64,000 bases of DNA. Source: Actinomycetota bacterium. Its GTDB lineage: Bacteria > Actinomycetota > Actinomycetes > Streptosporangiales > Streptosporangiaceae. Position 1 is the first letter of the stretch; each line of letters opens with the position of its first letter. The notes under the pieces are model-generated. The model did not search any database. It had not been told where the DNA came from and saw nothing but the letters and a program-made list of their open reading frames with translations. The position numbers and the translations under genes are program-made. Location of the stretch: contig JAJPIV010000080.1 in NCBI GenBank assembly GCA_021324595.1, forward strand, positions 38,649 through 102,648. Reading direction: 5' to 3'. Of the stretch, positions 36,376 to 61,794 are shown one piece after another.

Positions 36376-37473
36376 TTGGGGGGATTGGCCCTGCGGCACG
36401 AAGTCATCCCGGGCCGGAGGGCCGAGGGCGCCGTTCCGGCGGGCCCGGCCGGCGGCCCGCCGGTGCCGGTGCTGTTCATCGCCGGCTTCGGGCGCAGCGG
36501 GAGCACCCTGCTCGACCGCCTGCTGGGCAGCGGCCGCCAGCTGCACAGCGGCGGGGAGATCGGCGGGGTGTGGGCCCTGGGGCTGGTCGACGACCGGCTC
36601 TGCTCGTGCGGCGCCCGCTTCTCGCGCTGCGCGTTCTGGCAGGCGGTGGGCAGGGCCAGCTTCGGGGACCTGAGCGACGCCCAGATCCGGGAGGTGGTGC
36701 GGTACCTGCGCCGGGCCTTCCCGGTCAAGGGGGCGTGGCGCCTGCTGAGCCGCAGGACGAGAAGGCGGCTCATCGAGTCGGCTCCCCCCGCCTTCTTCGA
36801 GGTGACCGCCCGGATGTACCGGGGGCTGCTGGACGTGAGCGGCAGGCGGGTGGTCGTCGATTCTTCGAAGCTGGTGACCTACCTGGTGCTGCTGGCGCAC
36901 GTGCCATCGCTGGACCTGCGCGTCGTCCACCTGGTCCGCGATCCCCGCGCCGTGGCGCACTCCTGGCTGCGGCCGGGGGCCGCCGATCCGGATGGCCGGT
37001 CGTCGATGCCCCGGATCGGCATCCTCACGTCCGCCGCCCTGTGGCTGATCCTCAACGGCGCCGTGGAATGGGCGGCCCGGTGCCTGTCGCTTCCGTACGT
37101 CCGGGTCCGCTACGAGGACCTGGTGCGCGACCCGGCCGCCGTGGTGAGGCAACTGCGGTCGCAGGTCCTGGCGGACCCGGACCGGGAGGATCCAGCCCCC
37201 CGGGATCGTGCCGCCGCTGACCTCGGCGCCGGGCACATCGTCTCCGGCAATCCGATGCGGTTCCGCCGGGGCCGCGTGGAGATCGCGGAGGACGCGGGCT
37301 GGAAGGCGGATCCGGCCGCGGCGCGCGCGATCGTGGCGGCGGTCACGTTCCCGCTGCGGTGGCGGTACGGATATGGCGGGGTGCGCCTGGCCGGGCCCGG
37401 GCGCCGGCGCGGCATCGCCGGCCGGGGCCAGCCCGGGGCGGCGGACCCGGAGTCAGCCGCCGGCGGTGCGTGA
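36376..37473 (+). CDS. Sulfotransferase family protein
   Basis: VLFIAGFGRSGSTLLDRLLGSG (5'-PSB loop-like); VVVDSSKLVTYLVLL; LRVVHLVRDPRAVAHSWLR. Confidence 0.88.
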   Translation: MGGLALRHEVIPGRRAEGAVPAGPAGGPPVPVLFIAGFGRSGSTLLDRLLGSGRQLHSGGEIGGVWALGLVDDRLCSCGARFSRCAFWQAVGRASFGDLSDAQIREVVRYLRRAFPVKGAWRLLSRRTRRRLIESAPPAFFEVTARMYRGLLDVSGRRVVVDSSKLVTYLVLLAHVPSLDLRVVHLVRDPRAVAHSWLRPGAADPDGRSSMPRIGILTSAALWLILNGAVEWAARCLSLPYVRVRYEDLVRDPAAVVRQLRSQVLADPDREDPAPRDRAAADLGAGHIVSGNPMRFRRGRVEIAEDAGWKADPAAARAIVAAVTFPLRWRYGYGGVRLAGPGRRRGIAGRGQPGAADPESAAGGA

Positions 37474-38691
37474 CCGGGCCAGGGCCTCGTACCTCGACTC
37501 GACGTCGCGCATGTTGCGCTGGTAGTCGGCCCGGGCAGCCACCAGCCGCAGGTTCTCAGGCCGCGCCGACCGCGCCAGGGACTCGTCCGCCAGCGCCCGC
37601 ATCAGCGCGCTCGCCACCGCGGCCGGATCCGCCGGCGGCACCACGATGCCGTTGACGCCGTCACGAACCCACTCGCGCACCGACGCGACGTCGCCGACGA
37701 CCGGCAGCGCGCCGCACGCCATGGCCTCCAGGAGCGTGTTCGGGGTGCCGTCGTGCTCGGCGAGCGACACGCTGACGCGGCTGGCGCGGAAGGCGTCGGC
37801 CATGCCGGCCCGGGACAGCGGCGGGAGCAGGTGCACCCGCGCCTGGTCCAGGCGCGCCTGCGCCAGCATCCGGAGCGCGTGGCGCGATCCCGCCATGCCC
37901 GGGCAGACCACGTGCGCCCGCGGCGCCGACGCGAGCACCGGCGCGAGCGCGCGGAAGAAGACGTCGGTCCGCACGTACTCCCTGATGCCCCGGGGGTTGA
38001 GGATGACCGGAGCGCGCTCGGGTATCCCGAGGCGCCGCCGAAGGTCGCTGGGGCCCGGCCGGAAGACCGAGGCGTCGACGCCGCCGTTTCCCGGGATCAC
38101 CCAGACCTGGCGGTCCCGCGGGAAGCCCCACGCCCGCGCGACGCGCGAATCGCGCTGGCAGTCACAGTGCAGCACCGAGGCGGCCGCCAGCGCCCGCCGC
38201 GTCGCGCTCGCCATCATCGGAGTCCGGCCGGCGAACAGCGTCAGGTCATTGCCCCAGACGGAGACGATGACGCGCGCGCCGGCCAGCGCCGCGGCGGCGA
38301 TGCCCTCGAACGGGATCCGCATCGCGTGGACGACGTCGGGCTGATGCCGGGCCACCACCTGGCGCAGCCGCTCCCGCTTCACGCGCACCAGCGCCGGCCC
38401 GGCCAGGCACCGGACGGCCGCGACCCGCCGCGGGGTGACCCATCCCGCCGCCCGCCCGGCCGCGCGGATGGCCAGCCGGGCGGGGCCGCCCGGCGGCCGG
38501 CCGCCGCCGGCTCCGGCCCGCCCCGCCGCGGCGAGGACGAGCGGCAGCGGCACGACGTCGGCGCCGGGAAGCACATCCGCGGGCACCGGGTAGGAGGAGA
38601 TCGCCTGGACCTGGTGACCGCGATCGGTGAAGTACCCGATCCACTGGATCGCGATCGGGCTGCGCAGGTCGGCGATGAACGTGAGCCTCAT
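37453..38691 (-). CDS. Glycosyltransferase family 4-type protein
   Basis: MRLTFIADLRSPIAIQWIGYFTDRGHQV; HAMRIPFEGIAAAALAGARVIVSVWGNDLTL; SVSLAEHDGTPNTLLEAMACGALPVVGD. Confidence 0.9.
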   Translation of the reverse strand: MRLTFIADLRSPIAIQWIGYFTDRGHQVQAISSYPVPADVLPGADVVPLPLVLAAAGRAGAGGGRPPGGPARLAIRAAGRAAGWVTPRRVAAVRCLAGPALVRVKRERLRQVVARHQPDVVHAMRIPFEGIAAAALAGARVIVSVWGNDLTLFAGRTPMMASATRRALAAASVLHCDCQRDSRVARAWGFPRDRQVWVIPGNGGVDASVFRPGPSDLRRRLGIPERAPVILNPRGIREYVRTDVFFRALAPVLASAPRAHVVCPGMAGSRHALRMLAQARLDQARVHLLPPLSRAGMADAFRASRVSVSLAEHDGTPNTLLEAMACGALPVVGDVASVREWVRDGVNGIVVPPADPAAVASALMRALADESLARSARPENLRLVAARADYQRNMRDVESRYEALARSRTAGG

Positions 38692-39761
38692 CGGACGGCG
38701 CCCCGGGCGGATCCGGCGGACCGGATGGCGGACGCCATCGCGCGGGCGACCTCCTCGGCCGAGAACGCGGCCCGCAGCGAGGCCGGCACGGCGCGCGTCC
38801 TGGCCTGACGGGCCGCGGCCACCAGCTCGCAGGGCGTGGCCGCCCGCATCGCGACGACGGCGTCCCCCGCGGCCCGCCGGAGGTCGGCCGTTGAGCCGAC
38901 GCCCGGGCCGAGCACGACCGGCCGCAGGCCGACCAGGGCCTCGGCGGCCACGAGCGGCCACGGATCCATGCGGCTGGGCAGCAGGACGACGGCCGACCGC
39001 TCGAAGATCCTCCGCCGGTCCTCGCCCTCCACGAACCCGGCGTACTCAAGGCCGGGCAGCTGCCTGGCCAGGGCGGCGGTCTCCCGGCGGAGCGGGCCAT
39101 CGCCGGCCATGATCAGCCCCGGGAAGACCGACAGCAGCTCGGCGGCGGCCGCGAGCACCAGGTCGGCTCCCTTGCGCCGCGACAGCTGCCCGAGGAACAG
39201 CGCCGCGCCGGCGGGCCGCGGCGGGCCGATCGTGCGCAGGTCCGGTCCCTGCACCGAGTTGGGCGCGCGGTGGCAGGGAAGCGCCGGCGCCAGCTCGCGG
39301 ACGAACTGCTCGGCGGCGGCGCCCGGGACGATCGCCGCCGAGCAGGCGGCCAGGAACTCGCGCCGGACCGCCGACGACAGCCCGCCGCGGTGCCGGCCCG
39401 TGCCGTGGGCGCTCTCGACCCAGCTGATCAGCGGCACGCCGCGGCGCCTGGCCCACGCCCAGGCCGACCAGCAGGCGGGGACGTCCCAGCCGCCGAGCAC
39501 GATGGCCCGGGGCCGCAGGGCGTCCAGCGCGGATCGCACCCCGCGGGACAGCTCCAGGGCCACCCGCCCGGCCTCGACCCGGTGGCCGGGCAGGACTTCG
39601 ACCCGGAACCGGACTTCGGGCCACGGGATGGTCCACCGCCGGCCCGGCGCCGGGTCCCGCCGCGAGAGCAGCACGGCGAACTGCCCGCCGAGGGCATCGC
39701 TCAGGCAGTTGAACAGCGGCACCCGGTAGGGGGCCAGCGATCGCTGGAAGAGCACGATCAC
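38688..39761 (-). CDS. Glycosyltransferase family 4-type protein
   Basis: GAALFLGQLSRRKGADLVLAAAAELL; VVLLPSRMDPWPLVAAEALVGLRPVV; GTG start. Confidence 0.88.
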   Translation of the reverse strand: MIVLFQRSLAPYRVPLFNCLSDALGGQFAVLLSRRDPAPGRRWTIPWPEVRFRVEVLPGHRVEAGRVALELSRGVRSALDALRPRAIVLGGWDVPACWSAWAWARRRGVPLISWVESAHGTGRHRGGLSSAVRREFLAACSAAIVPGAAAEQFVRELAPALPCHRAPNSVQGPDLRTIGPPRPAGAALFLGQLSRRKGADLVLAAAAELLSVFPGLIMAGDGPLRRETAALARQLPGLEYAGFVEGEDRRRIFERSAVVLLPSRMDPWPLVAAEALVGLRPVVLGPGVGSTADLRRAAGDAVVAMRAATPCELVAAARQARTRAVPASLRAAFSAEEVARAMASAIRSAGSARGAVR

Positions 39762-41281
39762 GCTGCCTGCCCTCCGTCCCGCGCGAGCGGCGCGATGGCC
39801 ACCGGGCGCGCGGCGGCGAGGTAGCGGGCGATCTGGCGCAGGGCGAGAGCGCCCGCCGCCCCGGCGGCGACGGCGGCGCAGCCCACGGCCACGCCGCCCA
39901 GCCGCTGGCGCCCCCACGCGAGCAGGAGGGCGGCGCACGCCGTGCCGCCCCACGCGACGGCGGGCCGGAGGACCGGCCGGCCGCGGGCCCGCGCGGGCGG
40001 GCGCAGCCACCTCAGCCGTGTCACCGCCGGGGCCGCCTCGAAGATGACCGTGCAGGCGAGCAAGGCCCCGGCCGCGCCGGCGGCGCCCCACCGGCCGGCG
40101 GCGGGGACCGACAGGGCCGCCTGAGCCGCGAGGCTCCCGGCGAACCACAGGCGCAGCGCGCCCACGCCGTTCTCCGCCTGCAGCAGGCGCACGAACGGCC
40201 GGTACGCGCTCCGCACGGTCTCGGCCAGGACGATGACCAGCACCGCCCACGCGCCGCGCCCGTAGCCGGCGCCGAACGCCAGGCGCACGCCCTGCGCGCC
40301 CGCCGTCACCACGGCGAACGCGAGGGCCGCACCGCACGCCACGGCCACGATGGCGAGCTGGGCCGCCAGGCCGCAGAGGACCGGCCTGGCCTGGCGGGTC
40401 GCGCGGCACAGCGACACGAACATGCTGTCGGTGAACGGCGTCGTGACCCTGCGGGCCAGGCTTCCCACCTTGCTCGCGACGCCGTACAAGGCCGCGCCCG
40501 CCGGCCCGGCCGCGTGGCCGGCGACGGCCATGCCGATCGTCACGCTCAGCAGCGGCAGGGCGTCGGCCAGCACCACGCCGGTGGACTCGTACCACGCCCG
40601 CGCCCACCAGGCGAACGCCGGCGCGCCCGCGGGCCGTGCCCGCTGCGGCTCACCGGGCCAGCGCCGGCGCGCGACGATCACCAGCGCCAGGTCGAAGGCG
40701 ATCTCCACCGCCGCGTAGGCCAGGGCCACCGCGACGGCGGTCCGGTACCAGTACGCGGCCGCGACGCAGGCGAGCGTCCCGGCGACCGCGGGCCCGGCGC
40801 CGAAGATCCGCTCCAGGTCCATCCGGCCCAGCGCCAGCAGCCGCAGGGCGCACGTCTGGCACCTGAGGTTCACCCCGATCGCCGCGATCACCGCGAGCGC
40901 GGCCAGCTCCGGCCACCTGGTGTCCGCCAGGTACGGGCCGAGCAGGCCGCCGGGCAGCAGGCAGGCGAGCGCGAGGACAGCCACCAGGACCGCGGTGGCC
41001 AGGCGGTAGAACGCGCTCGCGCCGCGCAGTACGCTGGCCCGCCCGGCGCCGTCATGCTCGGTCATCCTGCGCAGGAAGACCAGCGACATCCCCATGTCCG
41101 CCACCGAGGCCAGCGCCGACAGCGACACCAGCAGCGTCCACAGGCCGAGCTCCGGGGTGCTCAGCAGGCGGGTCAGCAGCGGCAGGGTGAGGACGGACAC
41201 GACGAGCGTGCCCTGAGACCAGAGCCAGGCGGCGATCGTGTTCACGTACAGCTCGCGCCTCACGCGGTGGCGGCCGGCCAT
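39758..41281 (-). CDS. Oligosaccharide flippase / polysaccharide biosynthesis membrane protein (Wzx-like)
   Basis: Multi-pass membrane protein: NTIAAWLWSQGTLVVSVLTLPLLTRLLSTPELGLWTLLVSLSALASVADMGMSLVFLRRM. Confidence 0.85.
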   Translation of the reverse strand: MAGRHRVRRELYVNTIAAWLWSQGTLVVSVLTLPLLTRLLSTPELGLWTLLVSLSALASVADMGMSLVFLRRMTEHDGAGRASVLRGASAFYRLATAVLVAVLALACLLPGGLLGPYLADTRWPELAALAVIAAIGVNLRCQTCALRLLALGRMDLERIFGAGPAVAGTLACVAAAYWYRTAVAVALAYAAVEIAFDLALVIVARRRWPGEPQRARPAGAPAFAWWARAWYESTGVVLADALPLLSVTIGMAVAGHAAGPAGAALYGVASKVGSLARRVTTPFTDSMFVSLCRATRQARPVLCGLAAQLAIVAVACGAALAFAVVTAGAQGVRLAFGAGYGRGAWAVLVIVLAETVRSAYRPFVRLLQAENGVGALRLWFAGSLAAQAALSVPAAGRWGAAGAAGALLACTVIFEAAPAVTRLRWLRPPARARGRPVLRPAVAWGGTACAALLLAWGRQRLGGVAVGCAAVAAGAAGALALRQIARYLAAARPVAIAPLARDGGQAA

Positions 41282-42708
41282 CGCACGTTCCCAGGTCGGG
41301 GCGGGGGGACCGGGACCGGCCGGGGGACGTCCTCCAGCAGGGCCGACCGCCTCCGGCAGGCGAGGGCGGTCACCGCGAGCAGGCCCGCGAACGAGGTCAG
41401 CATCGCGGCGATGGCGCCCCGGGTGAAGATGTCGAGCAGGACCGATCCGCCCACGGCGACCAGCACCGACTCCCGCAGGCTCGCCGAGCCGGCCAGGCGC
41501 AGCGCGAGCAGCTCGGTGAGCGCGCCGAACAGCACCGAGCCGATGAGCGCCCCGGGCAGCCCGAAGTTCGCGTACATCTCGCCGAACTCGGGGAAGGCGA
41601 TGCCGGAGTTCCCCGGATCCATCTGGCCGGTGACGACGCTGATGGCGTCCTGCGGCTTGCCGCTCCACAGCGCCCGCGGAATGGGGAAGATCACCGTCTG
41701 CAGGTAGCTGGCGCCGTGCAGGTAGGGGGTGCCGTCCGGGACGGTGCCGGCCAGCCCGGCCAGCGGGAGGAACAGGTCGTTCCCGGAGCCGAACGGCTGC
41801 GCGAGCACGGCCCCGGGCGTCACGTCCCGGCTCCCGGCGGCGCCGCGGGCCACGGCGATCAGCGCCGCGGCGCCGACGACCGCCAGCATGCCGGCCGCCG
41901 CGAGGCGGCGCGGCGGGAGCGGCCGCGCGCTGGTCTTCAGCCAGATCAGGCCGGCGGCGCACACGGGCACGAAGAACCGGCCGCGCTGACCGTCGCCGAG
42001 CAGGACGACGGCGGCCAGCGCGGCCACCAGGAGCGGGCGGGCGATCCGCGCCGGCGTGGCGCGGCCCAGCCGGAGCGGCAGCAGGACGATCGCCAGCCCC
42101 GCTACGCACTGCGCGACGCTGAGGAACGCGAGATTGCCGGTGAGCTCGCGGTAGAACGTGCCGTAGCCGCCGGGGCTGGTGTAGGCGAAGAAGTCCCGCG
42201 GGCTCGCGTGGCCGAGGACGATCATGGCGGCGACCGCGGCGATGCCGGTGACCAGCGCCCTGCGGGCAGCCCGGTCCAGGCGCGGACCGGACAGGGTCAC
42301 CGGCAGGCGGCGCATCGGCGGGAACGGCCACAGCGTCCGGGCGGCGATCGCGCCGAGCAACATCCCGGCCTGCGCCAGGGCGGCGATCTGAAGGGCCAGG
42401 TCGACGCCGCCCTGGTAGTCGTTGCCCGCGATGGTCGTGCGGCCGAAGGCCTCGGCGCCCGTGGCGGGCAGGAGCACGAACAGGAACATGGCCATCAGGA
42501 CCGCGGTGAACAGCATGGAGAACGACCGCCGGGTCAGCGCCCAGGCCAGCGAGGCGGCCCAGCTCGCCCACAGCACGGTGAGCCAGAACGCGCCGGCTGG
42601 GGCGGAATCCGGCGGCGCGGGGCTGAGCAGGCCGGACAGGGCCACGACGGCCACGACGGAGGACGCGACGGCGACGAAGGCGAGCGGGACGGCCAGCCGC
42701 CGGGTCAC
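41260..42708 (-). CDS. O-antigen polymerase-like membrane protein (Wzy-like)
   Basis: Multi-pass protein; position between flippase and aminotransferase genes; FPEFGEMYANFGLPGALIGSVLFG motif typical of these polymerase-like proteins. Confidence 0.7.
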   Translation of the reverse strand: MTRRLAVPLAFVAVASSVVAVVALSGLLSPAPPDSAPAGAFWLTVLWASWAASLAWALTRRSFSMLFTAVLMAMFLFVLLPATGAEAFGRTTIAGNDYQGGVDLALQIAALAQAGMLLGAIAARTLWPFPPMRRLPVTLSGPRLDRAARRALVTGIAAVAAMIVLGHASPRDFFAYTSPGGYGTFYRELTGNLAFLSVAQCVAGLAIVLLPLRLGRATPARIARPLLVAALAAVVLLGDGQRGRFFVPVCAAGLIWLKTSARPLPPRRLAAAGMLAVVGAAALIAVARGAAGSRDVTPGAVLAQPFGSGNDLFLPLAGLAGTVPDGTPYLHGASYLQTVIFPIPRALWSGKPQDAISVVTGQMDPGNSGIAFPEFGEMYANFGLPGALIGSVLFGALTELLALRLAGSASLRESVLVAVGGSVLLDIFTRGAIAAMLTSFAGLLAVTALACRRRSALLEDVPRPVPVPPPRPGNVRWPAATA

Positions 42709-43769
42709 CGCCCTGACACCGCCTCACCGAGCACGTGGCGGACTCGGGCGATCTCGGACCGCGTCATCGCAGGGTAGAGGGGGACCGACACGATCGCCCC
42801 GTGGAGCCGGTCGGCGACCGGGAAGGTCCCCCGCCCGGCCCACCGGCGGGCCGGGACCGGCCTGCTGAACCCGACCCCGCGGGCGCGGGCACGCGCCACC
42901 ACGGCGGCCGGGTCGCCGGTGGCCAGCAGGTACCGCCACCATGTGCCGGTCCGGCCGGCGGGCGCCCGCAGCACCCGGCGCGCCCGCTCACCGAGCGCCT
43001 CGTCGTACAGGCGGGCGATCCCGGCGCGGCGGTCCAGCAGCTCGGGCAGGCGCGCCAGCTGGGCGGCGGCGAGCGCGCAGGCCAGGTCGGCCATCTTCGC
43101 GTGCGGGACCGGCGCGTCCGGTGGCAGGTCAGACTCCGGGTCGGTCCACCGCCGTGCCGCATCGACGTCCTCGGGCGATCCCGCCAGGGCCCCGCCCTCG
43201 CCGCCGCAGATCAGCTTCGTCGCCGAGAACGACAGGACCGCGAAGCGGCCGAACGTGCCCGCCGGCCGCCCGCCCACCGTGCCGCCCGCACAGGTCGTGA
43301 CGTCCTCGATGACCGTCACGGGGCTGCCCGCGGCCTCGGCCGCCGATGCCGCGGGGATGCCGAACTGGTGCACCACGACCGCCGCCTTGCACCGGCCGGC
43401 CAGCGAGGCGAGGGTCCCCGGCGGGAAGGACAGGTCGGCGGGATCCGCGTCGACCAGGTACGGGGTCCCGCCGGCCCGCAGGACCGCCCGCTCGATGGAG
43501 GCGCAGCAGTACGCGGGAACCGCCACCAGCTCCCCGGCGACGCCGGTCACGCGGAGGGCCACTTCCAGGGCGGCCGAGCCCGATGAGACGGCAGCGGCCG
43601 CGGGCCGGCCGAAGGCGGCGGCCACCGCGGATTCCAGCTTCCGGCCGGCCTCGCCGCCCGCCCCGACCCAGGCGCGATCCAGCGCGGCGATCACCGCGCG
43701 GCGCTCGGCGTCCCCGATGTCCGGGCGCGCGTGCGGAATCGGCGGCCCGGGGGGCTCGTCAGCCGACAT
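42705..43769 (-). CDS. DegT/DnrJ/EryC1/StrS family aminotransferase
   Basis: PHARPDIGDAERRAVIAALDRAWVGAGGEAGRKLESAVAAAFGRP; SSGSAALEVALRV; VIEDVTTCAGGTVGGRPAGTFGRFAVLSFSATKLICGGEGGAL. Confidence 0.92.
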   Translation of the reverse strand: MSADEPPGPPIPHARPDIGDAERRAVIAALDRAWVGAGGEAGRKLESAVAAAFGRPAAAAVSSGSAALEVALRVTGVAGELVAVPAYCCASIERAVLRAGGTPYLVDADPADLSFPPGTLASLAGRCKAAVVVHQFGIPAASAAEAAGSPVTVIEDVTTCAGGTVGGRPAGTFGRFAVLSFSATKLICGGEGGALAGSPEDVDAARRWTDPESDLPPDAPVPHAKMADLACALAAAQLARLPELLDRRAGIARLYDEALGERARRVLRAPAGRTGTWWRYLLATGDPAAVVARARARGVGFSRPVPARRWAGRGTFPVADRLHGAIVSVPLYPAMTRSEIARVRHVLGEAVSGR

Positions 43770-44448
43770 GGACGTCCAGGGACGGCTCGGAGAGGACCTC
43801 GCGCGCGGCGGGCAGGCCCGCGTTGGCCATCAGGTCCAGGACGGACGGGTCGGCGAGCCCCCGGCGGCTGGCTGGCGCCGGCCAGGACTGGACGGCGACC
43901 TCGATGCCCTCGGCGCGGAAGCGGTCCAGCGGCAGGTACGACACGCCCGGGCCGCCGGAGATGTAGCAGGTGCCGCCCACCTCCTTGACCAGGTCGAGGA
44001 CCAGGTCCCCCTTCGCCGAGCGCACCGGCAGGTCGGAGCTGCGCACGACCTTCACGTCAGGGGCGAGCAGCCTCAGGCACGCGCGGAAGGTCCGCCAGCA
44101 GACCTCGTTGATGGTCTCGGCCTCGTCCCGGTAGACCGCCTCGACCGCCGGGGCCAGGTCGTTCCAGTGCGGGCGCCTGGCGTAGCAGTGCCGGATGGTC
44201 CGCAGGTGCCGCCGCCACGTCGGCTGGACCCCGGCTTCCGACCACAGCGCGAGCCTGGACCCCCGCAGCGGCAGGCGCAGGACGATCGGCCGGCCGTCGG
44301 ACGACTCGACCACCGTCCGGTCCTCCCACTTGGTGGCCGAGCGCGAGAACTTCACCGAATCGAGCCAGATGTACACGTCACTGGCGAAGACCCGGTTCCA
44401 CACGTGGGTGCGCGCCCAGTAGGTCGGCTGGGTGATGGCCACTCTCAT
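43759..44448 (-). CDS. WbqC family protein
   Basis: MRVAITQPTYWARTHVWNRVFASDVYIWLDSVKFSRSATKWEDRTVV. Confidence 0.88.
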   Translation of the reverse strand: MRVAITQPTYWARTHVWNRVFASDVYIWLDSVKFSRSATKWEDRTVVESSDGRPIVLRLPLRGSRLALWSEAGVQPTWRRHLRTIRHCYARRPHWNDLAPAVEAVYRDEAETINEVCWRTFRACLRLLAPDVKVVRSSDLPVRSAKGDLVLDLVKEVGGTCYISGGPGVSYLPLDRFRAEGIEVAVQSWPAPASRRGLADPSVLDLMANAGLPAAREVLSEPSLDVHVG

Positions 44449-45074
44449 CGCCGGCCGCCGACCGTCATCCGCAGCGCGCGGAACGCCTCCGCGTACTCCA
44501 GTCCCGCGAACGCCCCGCGGATGCGCGCCCAGCTCGTGATCACGTCGGGGTCGATGATCTGCCGGCCCGCCTGCGATCCCCCGTACCGCCGCACGGCGGC
44601 CAGCTTGCGGTCCATCACCGGCGAGATGTCCACGTAGTAGTTCAGCTCGGCCTCCCGGCCGTCGAAGGCCCACGCCGAGCCCGGGTACTCGTAGGCGAGC
44701 ACGGTGGCCGCGACGTAGCCGGACCGGGACAGCGGCCTGGTGGCCGCCAGCCCCGCCTCGAACATGACGACGTGATCCTGGTGGTAGGAGGGAGAGGGGA
44801 TGCAGACGACGTCCGGGGCCTCGGCGGCGAGCAGCTTCTCGATCTCGCCCACCAGGTCGCGCCGGTCGAGGCAGAGCATCCGCGCCTCGTACTCCGGGCC
44901 GTGCAGCACCCGGTAGCGGAAGCCGAGCTCGGCGGCGACCTGGTCCACCTCGATGCCGCTGTCCCGCGACTCCACGCCGAAGATCACGAACGGGTCGCGC
45001 GCGCAGGCCAGCATGCCGCCGCAGCCGAGCGTCTCGTCGTCCATGTGCGGGGCGATCACCACGAGGTCAGCCAT
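44445..45074 (-). CDS. PIG-L family deacetylase (LmbE-like)
   Basis: LVVIAPHMDDETLGCGGML; PSPSYHQDHVVMFEAGLAA. Confidence 0.93.
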   Translation of the reverse strand: MADLVVIAPHMDDETLGCGGMLACARDPFVIFGVESRDSGIEVDQVAAELGFRYRVLHGPEYEARMLCLDRRDLVGEIEKLLAAEAPDVVCIPSPSYHQDHVVMFEAGLAATRPLSRSGYVAATVLAYEYPGSAWAFDGREAELNYYVDISPVMDRKLAAVRRYGGSQAGRQIIDPDVITSWARIRGAFAGLEYAEAFRALRMTVGGRR

Positions 45075-46646: not shown

Positions 46647-46851
46647 TGCCTGCCTAACCTGACGGGCGCTTCGGCGCCGGTCGAATTGAAATCTCCGGCC
46701 TCGCGATCCGGCACACTATCAGCCCGGTGCCCGGGCGGGGGCCGGAACGCCGGCATGGCGGATTTCGTGCAGGCTTTCCGAGTTTGGCGGGAGGCGCGAA
46801 ATGGAGTGGCTCACGGTCGCCGGCCTGGCCGGGTCACGTGGCCGGCGCGAT

Positions 46852-52699: not shown

Positions 52700-52747
52700 C
52701 GGGCCCCGCCCGCCAGCCATTGCCAGGAGATCGTGATTACCAAATGA

Positions 52748-52859: not shown

Positions 52860-54524
52860 ATGAGCACCGAGCACGCGCCCAATGCGGCATTGCTCAGTTA
52901 CGTCATTGTCGCCCGGAAGCGGAAGTGGTGGATCGCGAGCATGGCGCTGCTCGGCCTGCTCGGCGGGATCGGGCTGTCGCTGATCGAGCCGAAGCAGTAC
53001 CAGGCGACGGCGCAGGTGCTCGTCGAGACCGCGGGCGGGGTGCCGGCTCTCGGCGGCTCCGCGGCCGGCGTCACCCCGACGGTGGTGCAGACCGACGTGC
53101 AGCTGGTGACCAGCGCGCCGGTGAGGCGCGCGGTCGGGCCAGCGCTCTCCGCGAGGTCGGCGGTGACCGCGTCCGAGGTCGCGCAGACGAACGTCATCGC
53201 GATCACCGCCGCCAGCGGCGCGCCGGAGCTGGCGGCCCGCGCCGCCAACGCCTACGCGCGCGCGTTCGTCCGGTACGAGGAACAGGTCGCGCTCACGTCC
53301 CTGGCCGCGATGGAGAGCCAGCTGCGCAAGCAGATCCGGGCGCAGGAGCGGCAGATCAACGCGCTGAAGGTCCAGCGCGGGACCGGGGCGCAGGTGGCGG
53401 CGCTGCTCAACGAGGTCGCGGTGAGCCGTGAGCAGCTCGCGCAGATGCAGGTGCAGGGCGCGACGGCGAACGCGAGCGGGGTCGCCTTCGTGACCCCGGC
53501 CCAGGCCCCGGCCGGCCCGAGCGCGCCGCGGCCGGTGCAGGACGCCGCCCTCGGGCTGCTGGCCGGGGTGATCGTGGGCCTGGCCGTCGCGTTCCTGCTC
53601 GACAGCTTCGACGACACCGTGGGGTCCAAGGACTCCGCCGAGCGCATCGGCGGCGTCCCGGTCCTCGCGATGGTCCCGATGATCCCCTCGTGGAAGAGGG
53701 GCGACGAGGCCGTGGTCGTGTCCATCACGCAGCCGTTGTCGACGGCGGCGGAGGCCTACCGGTCGCTGCGCACCTCGCTGCAGTTCATCAGGCAGGAGCG
53801 CGAGCTGCGGACGCTGCTCGTGACCAGCCCCGCGGTGGCCGAGGGCAAGTCCACCACGGTCGCCAACCTCGGCGCGATGTTCGCCCAGGCCGGCGAGCGG
53901 GTGGCGCTGGTCTCCTGTGACCTGCGGCGGCCCCGGCTCGGGGAGTTCTTCGGCCTGGGGGAGAGGGCCGGGCTCAGCGCCATCCTCCGCGGCGCGGCCG
54001 CGCTGCCCGCGGGGATGCAGCAGGTCAGCGGCAACCCGAACCTGTGGCTGCTCGGCGCCGGCCCGGTGCCGTCCAATCCGGCCGAGCTGCTCAGCGGCCC
54101 GTTCGCGGAGGAGGCGTTCGCCTGGCTGCGGGAGAACGTGGACCTGGTCCTGATCGACAGCCCGCCGGTCCTGCCGGTGACCGACGCCGCGGTCCTGTCG
54201 CGGTACGCCGACGGCGTGCTCGTCGTCGTCGCGGCCAACCAGACCAAGCGGGTGGACATGCAGCGCGCGGTGGAGAAGCTGATCCAGGTGAGCGCGCCGC
54301 TGGTGGGAGTCGTCATGAACGGCGTGACCAGGCAGACCGGCTACGGGTACGGCTATGGGTACGGGTACGGCTACGGGTACGGGCTCGACCATGGCGCGGC
54401 CGACGAGCAGGTGCCCGTTCCGCGTAATGGCCGGCCCGCGGAGCGGCAGGCGCGCAACGGGCACGTGCGGGTGCGGTCCTGGTCGGCGGCGCCCGACCCG
54501 GCGCGGGATGGCCGCGGACGCTGA
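52860..54524 (+). CDS. Polysaccharide co-polymerase / bacterial tyrosine autokinase (Wzz-BY-kinase fusion)
   Basis: N-terminal Wzz region; LLVTSPAVAEGKSTTVANLGAMFAQAGERVALVSCDLRRPRLGEFFGL; VDLVLIDSPPVLPVTDA; C-terminal (GY)7. Confidence 0.93.
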   Translation: MSTEHAPNAALLSYVIVARKRKWWIASMALLGLLGGIGLSLIEPKQYQATAQVLVETAGGVPALGGSAAGVTPTVVQTDVQLVTSAPVRRAVGPALSARSAVTASEVAQTNVIAITAASGAPELAARAANAYARAFVRYEEQVALTSLAAMESQLRKQIRAQERQINALKVQRGTGAQVAALLNEVAVSREQLAQMQVQGATANASGVAFVTPAQAPAGPSAPRPVQDAALGLLAGVIVGLAVAFLLDSFDDTVGSKDSAERIGGVPVLAMVPMIPSWKRGDEAVVVSITQPLSTAAEAYRSLRTSLQFIRQERELRTLLVTSPAVAEGKSTTVANLGAMFAQAGERVALVSCDLRRPRLGEFFGLGERAGLSAILRGAAALPAGMQQVSGNPNLWLLGAGPVPSNPAELLSGPFAEEAFAWLRENVDLVLIDSPPVLPVTDAAVLSRYADGVLVVVAANQTKRVDMQRAVEKLIQVSAPLVGVVMNGVTRQTGYGYGYGYGYGYGYGLDHGAADEQVPVPRNGRPAERQARNGHVRVRSWSAAPDPARDGRGR

Positions 54525-54540
54525 GCATCACCTTACTAAA

Positions 54541-54563: not shown

Positions 54564-54588
54564 TGATAGCCGCTGTTAGCATGGCCCT

Positions 54589-55626
54589 GTGCGGGGGACA
54601 TTCACCATTACGGTCGCGGCCCTGTCGTGCGGTGCCTTCGTGGCCGCGGCCGAGCCATTCACGATCGCGATGCTGCGCCGCGCGGCGGCGCTCGACGTGC
54701 CCGGCGCCCGTTCGTCGCACCGGGTCGCCACGCCGCGCGGGGGCGGCGCGCCGATCGCGGCCGGGCTGGTCACCGTCGGCCTGCTGGTTCACAGCGGCGC
54801 GGCGATCGCGTTCGCCGTGGCGGTCGCCGGCTACGCGGCGATCGGCCTCGCCGACGACCTGGCGGGGTCCCAGGGCGGCCTGCCTGCCCGGCGGCGGCTG
54901 GCGCTGCAGGCGGCCGTCGCCACGGTCGTCACCGCTGCCCTCGCCCGCCAGGCCGGCTGGCCGGCCCTGCCGGCCGCCGCGGCGGCCGCGGCCGGGGCGC
55001 TCTGGCTCACCGGGTTCGTGAACGCGTTCAACTTCATGGACGGCGTCAACGGCATCTCGGCCGCGCACGCCGCCATCGGCGGCTGCGTCTACGCCGGCCT
55101 CGGCCTGTGGCGGCGCGATGGGTTCGTGGTTGCCGCCGGGGCGGCGGCCGCCGCGGGCGCGCTGGCGTTCTTGCCGTGGAACGCATGGCGCGCCCGGGTG
55201 TTCCTGGGTGACGTCGGCAGCTACGGCCTGGGCGCTGCGCTCGCGGTGCTCGCGATCCGCCTGGTGGCCGACCAGGTGCCGCCCGAGGCGGCGCTCGGCC
55301 CCATGCTCCTGTACGTCGCCGACACGGGCTGGACGCTGCAGCGCCGGATCCGGGCAGGGGAGCCCTGGCTCGAGGCGCACCGGACCCACGTCTACCAGCG
55401 CTGGTGCGACATCGGCTGGTCGCACCAGCGGGTCACGGCCACGGCGGCCGCCGTGACCACGCTGCTGTGCGCGCTCGGCATGGCCAGCCTGACCGGGAGC
55501 CTCGCGCTGCGGGCCGCGGCCGACGCGGCGGCGGCCGGGCTCGTCGCGCTCTACCTGCGGTCCCCGGCGCTGCTCGCCCGGCCGGCCGGCCGGGCGCGGC
55601 GCCTGGAGCGCCTGGAGCGTGCGTGA
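54589..55626 (+). CDS. MraY/WecA-like glycosyl-1-phosphate transferase
   Basis: LDVPGARSSHRVATPRGGGAPIA; GLADDLAG; FVNAFNFMDGVNGISAAHAAIGG; VFLGDVGSYGLGA. Confidence 0.93.
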   Translation: MRGTFTITVAALSCGAFVAAAEPFTIAMLRRAAALDVPGARSSHRVATPRGGGAPIAAGLVTVGLLVHSGAAIAFAVAVAGYAAIGLADDLAGSQGGLPARRRLALQAAVATVVTAALARQAGWPALPAAAAAAAGALWLTGFVNAFNFMDGVNGISAAHAAIGGCVYAGLGLWRRDGFVVAAGAAAAAGALAFLPWNAWRARVFLGDVGSYGLGAALAVLAIRLVADQVPPEAALGPMLLYVADTGWTLQRRIRAGEPWLEAHRTHVYQRWCDIGWSHQRVTATAAAVTTLLCALGMASLTGSLALRAAADAAAAGLVALYLRSPALLARPAGRARRLERLERA

Positions 55627-55627
55627 C

Positions 55628-56857
55628 ATGCGGATCCTGATGGTGACCCACTACTTCCCCCCGGAGGTCGGCGCCCCGCAGGCCAGGCTGTCCGCGCTCG
55701 CCGCCGCATGGGCGGCCGACGGCGACGAGGTGACCGTGCTGACCGGCATGCCGAACCATCCGACCGGGGTGCTGCCGCCGCAGTACCGGCGCGCGATCCG
55801 GCGGACCGAGCAGCGGGACGGGTACCGGGTGGTCCGCACCTGGCTCTACGCCACCGCCAACGAGAGGGTGGTCCGCAAGACCCTGTGCCACCTGAGCTTC
55901 ATGGCCAGCGCCGTGCTGCTGGGCTGGCGCCGCTGCCGGCGGGCCGACGTCGTCGTCGTCTCCTCGCCCACCTTCTTCTCCATCGGCGCGGCCTGGCTGC
56001 TGGCCCGGCTCGCGCGCGCCCGGCTCGTCGTCGAGGTCCGCGACCTGTGGCCGGCGATCTTCACCGAGCTCGGCGTGGTCACCAGCCGGCGGCTGATCGG
56101 CCTGCTGGAGCGCCTGGAGCTGGCCGCGTACGCGGCCGCCGACCAGGTGGTCGTGGTGACCGAGGGGTTCCGCGCGAACCTGATCTCCCGCGGCGTGCCG
56201 CCGGGGAAGGTCCACGTGATCCGCAACGGGGTGACGCCAGGCCGGTTCGACCCGGACGCCGCGCCCGACCCCGGGCTGCGCGCCCGGCTCGGCGCCCGGC
56301 CCGGCGACTGCCTGGTCCTGTACGCGGGGACGCACGGCATCTCCCAGGGCCTGCGCGCGGTCGTCGACGCGGCGGCGCTGCTCGCCGGCCTGCCGGTCAG
56401 GTTCGCGTTCGTCGGCGAGGGATCGGAGAAGGAGGGCCTGCGCGGCTACGCGGCGCGGCGGGCTCCCGGGCAGGTGACGATGCTGCCCGCGGTCCCGCAC
56501 GCCGAGGTCCCGGCCCTCATCGCCGCGGCCGACATCTGCCTGGTGCCGCTGCGCGACGTGCCGTTGTTCTCCGCGTTCATCCCCTCCAAGATGTTCGAGT
56601 ACCTGGCCGGCGGGCGGGCCGTGGTGGGCTCGGTGCGCGGGGAGAGCGCGCGGATTCTCGCCGAGGCGGGCGCGGTGGTGGTGCCTCCGGAGGACAGCGC
56701 GGCGCTGGCGCGCGCGATCGCGGCGCTCGCCGCCGACCCGGCCGAGCGCCTGCGGATCGGGCGGCGGGGCCGCAGCTACGCCGAGCGCTGCTGCGACCGG
56801 CTGGCGCTGGCGCGCGAGTACCGCAAGATCCTCGACCTGGCCGCGGACCGCCGGTGA
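55628..56857 (+). CDS. Glycosyltransferase family 4 (WbuB-like)
   Basis: MRILMVTHYFPPEVGAPQARLSALAAAWAADGDEVTVLTGMPNHPTGVLPPQYR; VVEVRDLWPAIFTELGV; PSKMFEYLAGGRAVV. Confidence 0.94.
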   Translation: MRILMVTHYFPPEVGAPQARLSALAAAWAADGDEVTVLTGMPNHPTGVLPPQYRRAIRRTEQRDGYRVVRTWLYATANERVVRKTLCHLSFMASAVLLGWRRCRRADVVVVSSPTFFSIGAAWLLARLARARLVVEVRDLWPAIFTELGVVTSRRLIGLLERLELAAYAAADQVVVVTEGFRANLISRGVPPGKVHVIRNGVTPGRFDPDAAPDPGLRARLGARPGDCLVLYAGTHGISQGLRAVVDAAALLAGLPVRFAFVGEGSEKEGLRGYAARRAPGQVTMLPAVPHAEVPALIAAADICLVPLRDVPLFSAFIPSKMFEYLAGGRAVVGSVRGESARILAEAGAVVVPPEDSAALARAIAALAADPAERLRIGRRGRSYAERCCDRLALAREYRKILDLAADRR

Positions 56858-57729
56858 GGCTGCTGGTCACCGGGGGGAGCGGCTTCCTCGGACGGCACGT
56901 GCTCGCCGAGGCGGCCAGGCGCGGGCACGAGTGCGTCGTCCTGGCGCGCAGCGAGGCCGCCGCCCGCACGGTCGCCGGGCTCGGTGCCCGCCCGCTGGCC
57001 GGCGACGTGGGCCGGCCCGCCGGCCTGGCGGGCGCGTTCGGCTCGGCGCGCTGCGACGTCCTGGTCAACCTCGTCTCGCTCGGGTTCGGGCACGCCCCCG
57101 GCATCGTCGCCGCGGCGCGGGCCGCCGGCATCCGCCGCGCGGTGTTCGTCTCGACCACCGCGGTCACCACGAGCCTTCCGGTGCGGTCCACCCCGGTGCG
57201 CCTGGCCGCCGAGGAGCACATCCGCCAGTCCGGCCTGGACTGGACGATCCTGCGCCCGACCATGATCTATGGCGCGCCCGGTGACCGGAACCTGTCGCGG
57301 CTGCTCGCCATCCTCGCCAGGACGCCGGTCCTGCCGGTCCCCGGTGGCGGCGCGCGCCTGCAGCAGCCGGTCCACGTCGCCGATGCGGCCGCCGCGGTCG
57401 TCGCCGCGGCGCTGCGGCCGGCCAGCGCCGGGCGGTGCTACGACGTCGCCGGGCCCGAGCCGATGCCGTTCACCGTGCTCCTGCGGCACTGCGCGGACGC
57501 GGTCGGCAGGAGGACCAGGTTCGTCCCGGTGCCGCTCGGCCCCGCCGTGGCCCTCGCCGCCGCCTACGAGCGGCTCGCCAGGCACCCGGGCATCAAGGCC
57601 GAGCAACTGCGGCGGCTGGCCGAGGACAAGGCGTTCGCGATCGACGCCGCCGTGCGCGACCTCGGCTTCGCGCCCCGCCCATTCCCCGCCGGCATACGCG
57701 CCGAGGCCCAGGCCATGGGGCTGCGGTGA
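56854..57729 (+). CDS. NAD(P)-dependent epimerase/dehydratase family protein
   Basis: GTG start; LLVTGGSGFLGRHVLAEAARRGHECVVLARS; LDWTILRPTMIYGAPGDRNL. Confidence 0.92.
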   Translation: MRLLVTGGSGFLGRHVLAEAARRGHECVVLARSEAAARTVAGLGARPLAGDVGRPAGLAGAFGSARCDVLVNLVSLGFGHAPGIVAAARAAGIRRAVFVSTTAVTTSLPVRSTPVRLAAEEHIRQSGLDWTILRPTMIYGAPGDRNLSRLLAILARTPVLPVPGGGARLQQPVHVADAAAAVVAAALRPASAGRCYDVAGPEPMPFTVLLRHCADAVGRRTRFVPVPLGPAVALAAAYERLARHPGIKAEQLRRLAEDKAFAIDAAVRDLGFAPRPFPAGIRAEAQAMGLR

Positions 57730-59510
57730 CCGGGGCGGACGTCGCGCTGGCCGCCCGCACCGCGGTGCGGCTGCGGCCGTCGCAGGTCGCGCACCGGGCC
57801 AGGCTCCGGGCGCAGCGCGCGGCCCTGCGCCGGTGGCCCCGGGCCGGCCGCCGGCTGCTCGCCGGGCCCGATCCGGCCGGCGCGCGCGGCTGGCCGCGCG
57901 GCTTCGCCCCGCTCGACGCGCGGGCGGGGCTCGGCTGGCCCGGCCTGGCCGGCCTGGCCGGCGGCAGGATCGAGGCGCTGGGCATCGCCCGGGATCTCGG
58001 TGACCCGCCGGACTGGGAGCAGGCCGGCGCTCCCCGGCTGTGGCGCTTCCACCTGCACTACTGGGACTGGGCCTGGGGCCTGGCGGCCGAGCCCGACCGG
58101 GCGGCGGCGCGCGCCGCGTTCGCCGCGCTCTGGCGGTCCTGGCGTTCGGCGGTCACGTTCGGCCGCGGCGACGCCTGGCTGCCCTACCCGGCGGCCCTGC
58201 GCGCGTGGGCCTGGTGCGGCCAGCACCGGCCGCTGGTGGCGGGCGGCGAGCTGGAGCGCGAGTTCACCGCCGAGCTCGCGGCCCACTGCGGGTTCCTCCG
58301 CCGTCACCTGGAGGCCGATGTCGGCGGTAATCACCTGATCAAGAACCTCAAGGCGCTGGCCGGCCTGGCGGTGTTCTTCGGCGACGAGCGGCTGCTGCGG
58401 CGCGCGCTGGGCCGCCTGGCCGGCCAGGCCGCCGTGCAGGTGCTGCCCGACGGCGGCCACTACGAGCGGGCCCCGGCCTACCACTGCCAGGTGCTCGCCG
58501 ACCTCATCGACGTGGCGGGCCTGGCCGCCGCGGCCGGGATCGCCGCGCCCTCCGAGCTGGCCGTCCTGACCGGGGCGATCGGGCGGATGCGCGGGTGGCT
58601 CGGCCAGGTGCTGCTGCCCGGCGGCCAGGTGCCGCTGCTGAACGACGGCTACCCGGTGCCCGCGGCGCTCGTGGCCGCGTGCCGGCCCGGCCCGGCTCCC
58701 GCCCGGCCGCTGGTGGTGCTGCCCGGCAGCGGGCTGGCCCGCGCCACGGCCGGCGGCTGGCACCTGCTCGCCGACGTGGGCGCTCCGTGCCCGGACGAGC
58801 TGCCCGCCCACGCCCACGCGGACCCCCTCGGCTGCCTGGTCCACCTGGACGGGGCGCCGCTGCTGGTGGACACCGGCACCTCGGGTTATGAGCCCGGCCC
58901 GGTCAGGTCCTACGAGCGGTCCACCAGCGCGCACAGCACGGTCCAGGTGGACGGCGCGGACTCGACCGAGGTGTGGGGCGCGTTCCGGGCCGGGCGCCGG
59001 GCGCGGGTCCGTGACCTGACCGCCCGGGAGGACGCCGGGAGGATCATCATCGAGGCGTCCCACGACGGCTTCCGGCGGCTGCCCGGCAACCCGGTCCATC
59101 GCCGCCGCTGGACGCTGACGGCCCGGGAACTGCTGATCACCGACGAGGTGACGGGCTCGGGTCGCCACCAGGTGGCGGCCACCTGGCACCTGTCGCCCGG
59201 GACGCTGGTGCGGATCGAGCCGGACCTGGCCGGACGGGCCGCCGGCGGCGGCGCCGGCGTCCCGTGGTGCCGGTCGGCAGTGCTCACGGCCGGCGGCCCG
59301 GGCGGCCCGGCCGTGGCCGTCACGCTGCGCGCCTCCAGCCCGGCGCTTCTCCAGGCGGGCTCGGCGCCGGTCGCGAGCGGCTTCGCCCGCACGGTCCCGG
59401 CGCCGGTGCTGACCTGCCGCGTGGACGCCGCCCTGCCGGTGCAGCTCGAGGTCCGGCTGCGCCGCGTCACGGGCACCGGCCCCGGCCGGCCCGCGGGGGA
59501 GGCGTCGTGA
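57726..59510 (+). CDS. Heparinase II/III family protein (polysaccharide lyase-like)
   Basis: LWRFHLHYWDW; GNHLIKNLKALAGLAVFFGDERLL; DGGHYERAPAYHCQVLADLID; PAHAHADPLGCLVHLDGAPLLVDTGTSGYEPGPVRSYERSTSAHSTVQVDGADSTEVWGAFR. Confidence 0.92.
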   Translation: MTGADVALAARTAVRLRPSQVAHRARLRAQRAALRRWPRAGRRLLAGPDPAGARGWPRGFAPLDARAGLGWPGLAGLAGGRIEALGIARDLGDPPDWEQAGAPRLWRFHLHYWDWAWGLAAEPDRAAARAAFAALWRSWRSAVTFGRGDAWLPYPAALRAWAWCGQHRPLVAGGELEREFTAELAAHCGFLRRHLEADVGGNHLIKNLKALAGLAVFFGDERLLRRALGRLAGQAAVQVLPDGGHYERAPAYHCQVLADLIDVAGLAAAAGIAAPSELAVLTGAIGRMRGWLGQVLLPGGQVPLLNDGYPVPAALVAACRPGPAPARPLVVLPGSGLARATAGGWHLLADVGAPCPDELPAHAHADPLGCLVHLDGAPLLVDTGTSGYEPGPVRSYERSTSAHSTVQVDGADSTEVWGAFRAGRRARVRDLTAREDAGRIIIEASHDGFRRLPGNPVHRRRWTLTARELLITDEVTGSGRHQVAATWHLSPGTLVRIEPDLAGRAAGGGAGVPWCRSAVLTAGGPGGPAVAVTLRASSPALLQAGSAPVASGFARTVPAPVLTCRVDAALPVQLEVRLRRVTGTGPGRPAGEAS

Positions 59511-59626
59511 TCGCCGCGAGGGCCGGGGGCACTCGGGCAGGCGGCGTGCCCACGGGGAGGCGGCGTGGCCACGAGGTGGCGGACCGCGTGACCAGGGGAG
59601 AAGCGACCATGGGGGAAACGCCGTGA
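59507..59626 (+). CDS. Putative small ORF, 39 aa, unknown function
   Basis: VIAARAGGTRAGGVPTGRRRGHEVADRVTRGEATMGETP; GTGA overlap with upstream stop and GTGA overlap with downstream start. Confidence 0.35.
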   Translation: MIAARAGGTRAGGVPTGRRRGHEVADRVTRGEATMGETP

Positions 59627-61794
59627 GGCAGGTCGTTCAGCCGCTCGCGGGCGGGCCGGTCCGGGTGCTCGACGTGCCACGGCCGGTTCCGGCGCCGACG
59701 GAGGTGCTCGTGCGCACCCTCGCCTCGGTGCTGTCGCCGGGCACGGAGAGCGCGGTCACCGCCCTGGCCCGCTCCGGCCTGGTCGCCAAGGCCCGGGCCA
59801 GGCCGGACCTGGCCCGGCAGGTCGTCCGCAGGGCGCGGGCCGACGGGGTCGCCGCGGCCGTGGGCGCGGTGCGGAGCAGGCTCGCCGGCGACATCCCGCT
59901 CGGCTACTCGGCGGCGGGCGAGGTGATCGAGGTCGGCGCCGCGGTGACCGGGATCCGGCCCGGCCAGGTCGTCGCGACGGCGGGGGCGGGCAAGGCGAAT
60001 CACGCCGAGTACCAGGCGGTCCCGGGCCTGCTGTGCGCCGTGGTGCCCGACGGCGTGCCGCCCGGCGACGCCGCGTTCGCCACCCTTGCCGCGATACCGC
60101 TGCATGCCCTGCGGCTGGCCGGGGTGGGCCCGGGGTCGAAGGTGGTGGTGATCGGCCTGGGCCTGATCGGCCAGCTCGCGGCCCGGCTCGCGATGGCGGC
60201 GGGATGCGACGTGGCCGGGATCGACCCGGCCGGGCACGCCCGGGACGCCGCGCGCGGCTCCGGGGTGCTGGCGCTGGAGGAGTCAGGCGAGGCGACTACG
60301 CAGCGGGTGCTCGCCTGGTCCCGGGGCCGGGGGGCCGACGCGGTGCTGGTGTGCGCGGCGACCCCCTCGGCGGACCCGGTCGCCCGGGCGCCCGGGCTCT
60401 GCCGGGACCGGGCCAGCGTGGTGATCGTCGGCGACGTGGGCCTGCGGCTGGACCGGGCGCCGTTCTACGCGCGCGAGCTGTCGCTGCTGTTCGCCCGGTC
60501 CTATGGACCGGGCCGGCATGAGCCGTCCTATGAGCAGTGGGGCGTGGACTACCCGCCCGGGCAGGTCCGCTGGACCGAGGGGCGGAACCTGGAGGCCGTG
60601 CTCGACCTGCTCGCGGTCGGCCGGCTCGCCGTCGCCGACCTGGTCACGCACCGGTTCCCGATCGAGGACGCGGCCCGCGCTTACGAGCTGATCGAGCGGC
60701 GCTCCGAGCCGTACCTGGCGATCAGCCTCAGCTACCCGGGGCCGCCGGCCGCCCCGCCTGCCCGGCCGGCGCCCGCGGCGCCTGCGGCCCCGCCGCCCGC
60801 GGCCGAAGCTGCGCTGCCCGCCGCGCGGCGGGCCGCCGGGCACGGCCCGATCCGCGCGCCCGGCGTCGGCTGGATCGGAGCGGGCTCGTTCTCCGGCCAG
60901 ACGCTGCTGCCGGCGTTCCGCGCCGCCCGGCTCACCAGCCTGGTGGCGGTGGCCTCGGCGAGCGGGCTGTCCGCGCGCTGCTTCGCCGAGCGGCACGGCT
61001 TCACCGCCGCCGTGAGCGGCGCGGGAGCGGTCATCGACCACCCCGAGGTGGATGTAGTGGTGGTCGCGACCCCGCATGACTCGCACGCCGAGCTCACGGC
61101 GCGGGCGCTGGCCGCCGGCCGGCACGTGTGGTGCGAGAAGCCGCTCGCGCTCAGCGCCGACGGGGTCGACTCGGTCGAGGCCGCGTGGCGGGCGTCGGGC
61201 AGGCAGCTCATGATCGGGTTCAACCGCCGCTGGTCGCCGGCCGTCCTGGCGGCCGCGCGCGCCCTCGCAGGCGTCCCGGGGCCGCGCTACGTGACTTACC
61301 GGGTCGCCGCCGGGCCGGTGCCGGCGGGCCACTGGTACCACGACCGGCGGCAGGGCGGGCGGCTGCTCGGCGAGGTGTGTCACTTCGTCGACACGGCGCA
61401 GGCGCTGGCCGGGGAACCGGTCGCGCAGATCCGCGCCGTGCTCGGCGGCGACGACCGCGACGGCCACGGCGTTCCCGGGGCGGACGCGGCCGTGTGCGTC
61501 AGGTTCGCCGCCGGGTCGCTCGCGGTGATCTGCTACGGCAGCGCGCGGTTGCGCGACGGCAAGGAGCGGGTCGAGGTCATGGCCGGGCCGCACGCCCTGG
61601 TGATCGACGACTTCAGGTCCGCGCGCCTGGACGGCCGGGTGCTCTGGAGGGGGAGGCGGGACAAGGGTCACCGGGCGCAGGCCGCCGCGTTCGCCGCGGC
61701 GATCTCCGGAGGGGCCGCGCTGCCCACCGCCGACATGATCGCCACCATGCGCGCGACCATCGCCGCCGCGGATTCCGGGGTGCGCGGTGATTAA
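59623..61794 (+). CDS. Bi-domain oxidoreductase: zinc-type alcohol dehydrogenase fused to Gfo/Idh/MocA dehydrogenase
   Basis: N-terminal MDR (VLSPGTESAV; GVGPGSKVVVIGLGLIGQLAARLA), Pro/Ala linker, C-terminal Gfo/Idh (VGWIGAGSFSGQTLLPAFR; VVVVATPHDSHAELTARALAAGRHVWCEKPLALS). Confidence 0.93.
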   Translation: MRQVVQPLAGGPVRVLDVPRPVPAPTEVLVRTLASVLSPGTESAVTALARSGLVAKARARPDLARQVVRRARADGVAAAVGAVRSRLAGDIPLGYSAAGEVIEVGAAVTGIRPGQVVATAGAGKANHAEYQAVPGLLCAVVPDGVPPGDAAFATLAAIPLHALRLAGVGPGSKVVVIGLGLIGQLAARLAMAAGCDVAGIDPAGHARDAARGSGVLALEESGEATTQRVLAWSRGRGADAVLVCAATPSADPVARAPGLCRDRASVVIVGDVGLRLDRAPFYARELSLLFARSYGPGRHEPSYEQWGVDYPPGQVRWTEGRNLEAVLDLLAVGRLAVADLVTHRFPIEDAARAYELIERRSEPYLAISLSYPGPPAAPPARPAPAAPAAPPPAAEAALPAARRAAGHGPIRAPGVGWIGAGSFSGQTLLPAFRAARLTSLVAVASASGLSARCFAERHGFTAAVSGAGAVIDHPEVDVVVVATPHDSHAELTARALAAGRHVWCEKPLALSADGVDSVEAAWRASGRQLMIGFNRRWSPAVLAAARALAGVPGPRYVTYRVAAGPVPAGHWYHDRRQGGRLLGEVCHFVDTAQALAGEPVAQIRAVLGGDDRDGHGVPGADAAVCVRFAAGSLAVICYGSARLRDGKERVEVMAGPHALVIDDFRSARLDGRVLWRGRRDKGHRAQAAAFAAAISGGAALPTADMIATMRATIAAADSGVRGD

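Follow-up and report, generated by a model that had tools for sequence, protein, structure and literature searches.

A probable Wzx/Wzy-dependent exopolysaccharide locus with a sulfotransferase and a PIG-L/WbqC gene pair in a soil actinomycete

Introduction

Sulfation is an established modification of bacterial exopolysaccharides (EPS), as in the cyanobacterial polymer synechan (PMC8205485). Among actinomycetes, a predicted sulfated-EPS locus of the Wzx/Wzy type, wps-1, was reported in 2026 from Actinoplanes missouriensis, where it is needed for normal sporangia and mutants have distorted sporangia (PMC13390465). Other described systems share single components with the locus analyzed here. In Pseudomonas aeruginosa PA14, which encodes the HepP/ZbdP pair, hepP is needed for a normal pellicle/biofilm (PMC5732420). 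In bacillithiol synthesis, BshC is the enzyme proposed to attach cysteine to glucosamine-malate once BshB, a PIG-L enzyme, has taken off the acetyl group; a 2015 review noted that BshC activity had not been shown in vitro (PMC4360819).

Here we describe a locus at positions 36376–61794 of a 64,000-nucleotide stretch of DNA from a soil actinomycete (the window). A sequence-only reading had called this region the best candidate for an undescribed system in the window, which is too strong given that a predicted sulfated-EPS Wzx/Wzy locus was already reported from Actinoplanes in 2026 (PMC13390465).

Results

Gene calling used a codon model trained on the 64-kb window, and families were identified by HMM search (Table 1). 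The region is probably a Wzx/Wzy-dependent EPS locus. All genes named in the sequence-only reading were recovered at 36376–61794 with family matches by HMM, which upholds its assignment of Wzx/Wzy assembly with BY-kinase/LMW-PTP control and of amino-sugar, methyl-transfer, and sulfation genes to this locus. Its contiguous polysaccharide region stands in gene content but is divided by deoC, a housekeeping gene that had been overlooked and has no part in polysaccharide synthesis. The result is two blocks, a cassette and a core, and several transcription units: the sulfotransferase (+), eleven minus-strand cassette genes (GT4a through MT2), deoC (+), and, to its right, a core that runs from CapD to the bi-domain oxidoreductase and is mostly on the plus strand, with LMW-PTP on the minus strand. 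The contig ends where the window does on the right, and the locus could therefore extend further. Near this end, positions 61945–63824 resemble a broken transposase gene spread over several frames, with no Pfam match.

Table 1. Positions in the window, strands, and supporting evidence for genes of the locus
Feature	Position	Strand	Evidence
Sulfotransferase (Sulfotransfer_3)	36385..37473	+	PF13469 51.5 bits; 64% ortholog, same place in G021
GT4 glycosyltransferase a	37453..38691	-	HMM; 69% ortholog in G021
GT4 glycosyltransferase b	38688..39761	-	HMM; ortholog in G021
Wzx-like flippase, weak	39758..41263	-	NF041503 23.5 bits, cut-off 300; 58% ortholog in G021
Wzy-like polymerase, weak	41260..42708	-	TIGR04370 27.7 bits, cut-off 40; 56% ortholog in G021
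DegT/LegC-like PLP aminotransferase	42705..43769	-	DegT 152 bits; Lys motif SFSATKL present
WbqC family protein	43759..44442	-	WbqC 105 bits; model pLDDT 92; best fold match BshC (4wbd)
PIG-L deacetylase	44445..45074	-	PIG-L 42 bits; PHMDDE and HQDH motifs intact; 82% ortholog in G021
FkbM methyltransferase	45067..45942	-	TIGR01444 45.3 bits, cut-off 37.7
SAM methyltransferase MT1	45939..46646	-	HMM
GT4 glycosyltransferase c	46852..48084	-	HMM
SAM methyltransferase MT2	48081..48860	-	HMM; homologue adjoins core in G039
deoC, deoxyribose-phosphate aldolase (nucleoside salvage, bystander)	49068..50063	+	TIGR00126 164.6 bits, cut-off 117.3; adjoins add in G002, G003
CapD/WbpM-type UDP-GlcNAc 4,6-dehydratase, membrane form	50218..52212	+	CapD 308 bits
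LMW protein-tyrosine phosphatase	52076..52693	-	LMWPc 57.4 bits; CTANVCRS
Wzz + BY-kinase	52860..54524	+	Wzz 37.9, TIGR01007 152.1 bits; Walker A AVAEGKST; Tyr-rich tail (GY)n
WecA/MraY-like polyprenyl-phosphate sugar-1-phosphate transferase	54589..55626	+	PF00953 92.6 bits
WcaI-like GT4 glycosyltransferase d	55628..56857	+	HMM
SDR, possible C4 reductase of CapD product (role inferred)	56854..57729	+	HMM
Heparinase II/III-like protein	57726..59510	+	Hepar_II_III_C 158 bits; NH, YH, HxHxD conserved
Bi-domain oxidoreductase (Zn-ADH + Gfo/Idh/MocA), ZbdP-like architecture	59623..61794	+	HMM

The initiating transferase and the Wzz co-polymerase, BY-kinase, and LMW-PTP of such a system are present. 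The Wzx-like protein is a multi-pass membrane protein with no Pfam match, and the Wzy-like protein has ~9 hydrophobic segments and, besides its TIGR04370 match, a PF14296 score of 20.3 (cut-off 26.6). That both score under curated cut-offs counts against the EPS explanation. The LMW-PTP gene and capD, which are on opposite strands, overlap at their 3' ends (52076–52212), an arrangement kept in genomes G036 and G002. The C-terminus of the BY-kinase is a pure (GY)n tract with seven tyrosines. CapD carries LxxxK (LGYSK), compared with the MxxxK that WbpM-type enzymes presumably have in their catalytic triad.

The unity of the locus was borne out by a search for the same neighbourhood in relatives, as the sequence-only reading had proposed. 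A second genome (G021; JAOPYP010000587.1, a MAG labelled Actinomycetes bacterium RYN_230) has the same block, with the whole cassette and the 3' half of the core in one unbroken 19-kb stretch at 50%–82% identity: the sulfotransferase, GT4a through MT2, then the bi-domain oxidoreductase, the heparinase-like gene, the SDR, and GT4d. The core directly follows the cassette in G021, whereas deoC lies between them in the window. Because the cassette and part of the core are continuous there, the two belong together. The G021 contig stops inside the core, a point counted against the EPS explanation, and a search of this MAG (89% complete) gave no close homologue of WecA.

The window genome and G021 are the only two genomes found with the cassette. 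No other close cassette was identified among 201 family genomes (PIG-L with >60% identity in a cluster) or in a pattern-based scan of 84,980 species, and Nonomuraea sediminis has from the cassette only the PIG-L/WbqC pair (66% and 53% identity). The core is common to other genera and is joined there to different cassettes; it lies beside these in three genomes (G033, G036, and G039), and a smaller part of it occurs in a fourth (G080). With its core among such varying neighbours, the locus is built in the usual way, with an exchangeable cassette added to conserved assembly genes.

The add and deoC genes are adjacent in two genus-mates (G002 and G003) and separated in the window by 13 kb of cassette (36088–49068), which identifies the cassette as an insertion. 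The add-deoC junction seems to take up DNA (loci L151, L152, and L153). CapD, LMW-PTP, and BY-kinase genes follow deoC in G002, as in the window, with a probable transposase gene (helix-turn-helix; L152, 6189–7388) between deoC and capD. After the transposase-like gene there are two tandem BY-kinase genes, the second of which follows the CapD/LMW-PTP/BY-kinase set, and a different DegT, a Wzy_C protein, an FkbM gene, and a GT/flippase fusion are nearby. This gene content marks the place next to deoC as a polysaccharide site of the genus with changing contents.

Because the window genome, apparently a MAG, is in 168 contigs with 4% contamination, an error of binning or assembly might have placed the cassette between add and deoC. 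This is extremely improbable, as the cassette has the same GC content as its surroundings and adjoins its accompanying core in G021, and the core occupies its genus-typical place after deoC, as in G002. No clear mark of transposition was seen at the cassette edges: positions 36060–36420 and 48780–49230 share no direct or inverted repeat of at least 11 bp. In another genome, G001, the junction holds ~1.4 kb with two other small ORFs.

Both PAPS-binding motifs of the sulfotransferase, which the sequence-only reading had marked for checking, are intact in sequence: GFGRSGSTLL and VHLVRDPRAVAHSW, with GRSGST for the 5' phosphosulfate and VRDPRAVAHS for the 3' phosphate. The window genome also encodes an APS kinase for PAPS supply, and together these make sulfation of the polymer plausible. 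The only PDB sequence relative found was 4gox, listed as a polyketide synthase, which we take to be a sulfotransferase domain. About half a dozen further Sulfotransfer_3 genes occur in the window genome, so the family alone does not give the acceptor. Given these genes and its separate strand, the enzyme could act on a small molecule; its conserved position in G021 points to a polysaccharide.

A broader form of the small-molecule explanation is that the sulfotransferase and PIG-L/WbqC have a small molecule or glycolipid as their substrate and that their genes are next to an ordinary EPS locus only by coincidence. The separate transcription unit of the sulfotransferase, the frequency of such genes in these genomes, and the synthesis of mycothiol and bacillithiol by PIG-L relatives would all fit. 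We nevertheless consider it unlikely, since G021 keeps the gene order, with Wzx, Wzy, and glycosyltransferases interleaved in one run, and since PIG-L/WbqC pairs lie among glycosyltransferase and sugar-nucleotide genes in many phyla. Genomes G000, G001, G003, and G039 have many Sulfotransfer_3 genes (up to 15 matches), an abundance that hints that sulfation is widely used across the family.

PIG-L and WbqC, listed as two separate genes in the sequence-only reading, form a recurrent pair. A pattern search of GTDB genomes gave 80 PIG-L loci (L051–L130). Of these, 45 also carry a WbqC gene on that stretch of DNA, in nearly every case immediately downstream or a few genes away, and they represent several phyla. 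In Omnitrophota and Nitrospinales, DegT aminotransferases, sugar dehydratases, cytidylyltransferases, NeuB, and radical SAM proteins are nearby, and the neighbourhoods are predicted to encode nonulosonic-acid-like or related amino-sugar pathways. In Nonomuraea, Marmoricola, and Nocardioides, the pair is found among glycosyltransferases and sugar-nucleotide genes. A stand-alone pair in Nonomuraea was considered and dropped because GT4 and GT2 genes are close by. A de-N-acetylated polymer had been proposed for this locus. Because PIG-L travels with WbqC, including in loci with NeuB, cytidylyltransferase, and DegT, modification of one sugar or of a precursor is more likely than deacetylation of a GlcNAc polymer.

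The only PDB fold match to the WbqC model with a probability of 1.00 was BshC (4wbd; E = 2.3e-3, 155 columns, TM-score 0.44 on the query). WbqC gave no match to the BshC Pfam family, its profile search against PDB sequences returned nothing credible, and hhalign with three BshC sequences was not significant. Deeper alignments gave an E value of 0.015 and a score of 25.9, which beats 200 of 200 column-shuffled BshC alignments (maximum 23.3); an unrelated family gave 22.1. Profile comparison supports the link weakly, short of significance, and this too counts against the EPS explanation. By eye, HQPxxLPWxGFxxK in WbqC resembles GQQxGLxxGPxYxxxK in BshC, and hhalign twice aligned YISGxxGxxY with FxGGPxExxY of BshC. 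A literature search on WbqC returned nothing useful, with no function assigned in the sources searchable. The O-antigens of Escherichia coli O121 and Shigella dysenteriae 7 carry a glycyl-type group on 4-amino-4,6-dideoxyglucose, and a wbqC gene is present.

The recurrence of the pair and the best structural match of the WbqC model suggest, by analogy with BshC, that PIG-L/WbqC may be a deacetylate-then-ligate step on an amino sugar of surface glycans. More tentatively, and with doubt outweighing confidence, the pair could be a widespread two-gene module for surface glycans, in which a compact BshC-like ligase puts an amino acid or another acyl group in place of the N-acetyl on an amino sugar. 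If so, it would be the polysaccharide counterpart of BshB-BshC in bacillithiol/mycothiol synthesis, and the WbqC family would gain a function.

The model of the heparinase-like protein (pLDDT 86) has its best fold matches in heparinase III (4fnv, TMq 0.71; 5jmf, E = 1e-19), and the residues expected for catalysis (N202, H203, Y252, H362, and H364) are invariant in 16 homologues. Sequence and model are therefore consistent with a heparinase III-type fold and active site. A PDB sequence search gave no match, plasmid records contained only distant relatives, and no clear N-terminal signal was seen. The gene belongs to the core rather than to the sulfotransferase cassette and is found beside other cassettes.

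The sequence-only reading had likened the chemistry to that of glycosaminoglycans. In such an analogue, a backbone of amino sugar and uronate would be N-deacetylated and sulfated, and the heparinase-like protein would be its dedicated lyase; a sulfotransferase, a deacetylase, and a lyase most similar in fold to heparinase III do lie together here. However, no uronate-forming gene or UDP-sugar dehydrogenase is among the locus genes, PIG-L is not an NDST-type N-deacetylase, and the heparinase-like protein and oxidoreductase match the HepP/ZbdP architecture of P. aeruginosa and sit in a core that also accompanies other cassettes. Four UDP-glucose/GDP-mannose dehydrogenase-type genes score over cut-off elsewhere in the window genome, a point in favor of the analogue. 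Lyases with the heparinase III fold act by a known mechanism on uronic acids, so the polymer could still contain uronate. Taken together, a glycosaminoglycan analogue is quite unlikely.

Discussion

We consider it probable that this is an exchangeable Wzx/Wzy EPS locus whose product starts with a 6-deoxy-N-acetylhexosamine and carries a tailored amino sugar, methylation, and sulfation. Gene content, motif integrity, conservation of the block, and its genomic site are direct observations; substrates, step order, and chemistry are predictions. CapD and the SDR would form a 6-deoxy-N-acetylhexosamine nucleotide sugar (QuiNAc/FucNAc type), which the WecA-like enzyme would load onto undecaprenyl phosphate. 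Four GT4 enzymes could then build a repeat of about five sugars for Wzx to flip and Wzy to polymerize, with chain length presumably set by Wzz/BY-kinase and LMW-PTP. DegT, PIG-L, and WbqC may tailor one amino sugar by installing or exposing an amine that is then amide-linked to another group. FkbM, MT1, and MT2 would methylate, and the sulfotransferase would sulfate the repeat or its precursor with PAPS as the donor. The heparinase-like lyase and bi-domain oxidoreductase would serve as core functions, possibly in trimming and sugar oxidation.

The assembly machinery is ordinary and the locus is rare. Sulfated EPS are rarely predicted in actinomycetes, and this locus would be a second one, differently built. 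The PIG-L/WbqC pair is the most testable and biologically least expected point. If experiments bore out a link to BshC-like amide ligation, one could predict which of many bacterial glycans contain sugars that are aminoacylated or N-acylated in other ways, and the result would also bear on BshC itself.

Among described systems, wps-1 is likewise a Wzx/Wzy/Wzz locus of an actinomycete; it includes sulfotransferases and a methyltransferase, and sulfation is also predicted for it; it differs in having 11 genes, with two sulfotransferases, GT2/GT26, and GH26, and the gene list given for it mentions no PIG-L, WbqC, DegT, CapD, heparinase-like gene, or LMW-PTP (PMC13390465). Synechan (xss), the sulfated EPS of the cyanobacterium Synechocystis, is described together with genes for a sulfotransferase and wzx (PMC8205485). 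HepP/ZbdP is alike in domain architecture, with a heparinase-like protein lacking an export signal next to an ADH + Gfo/Idh/MocA bi-domain protein, but zbdP is upstream of hepP in P. aeruginosa, whereas the oxidoreductase gene is downstream here (PMC5732420). BshB/BshC and MshB/MshC likewise pair a PIG-L deacetylase with an amide-forming ligase acting on the exposed amine, and the WbqC model resembles BshC; theirs is a small-molecule thiol pathway, and WbqC has 227 aa compared to ~540 aa (PMC4360819).
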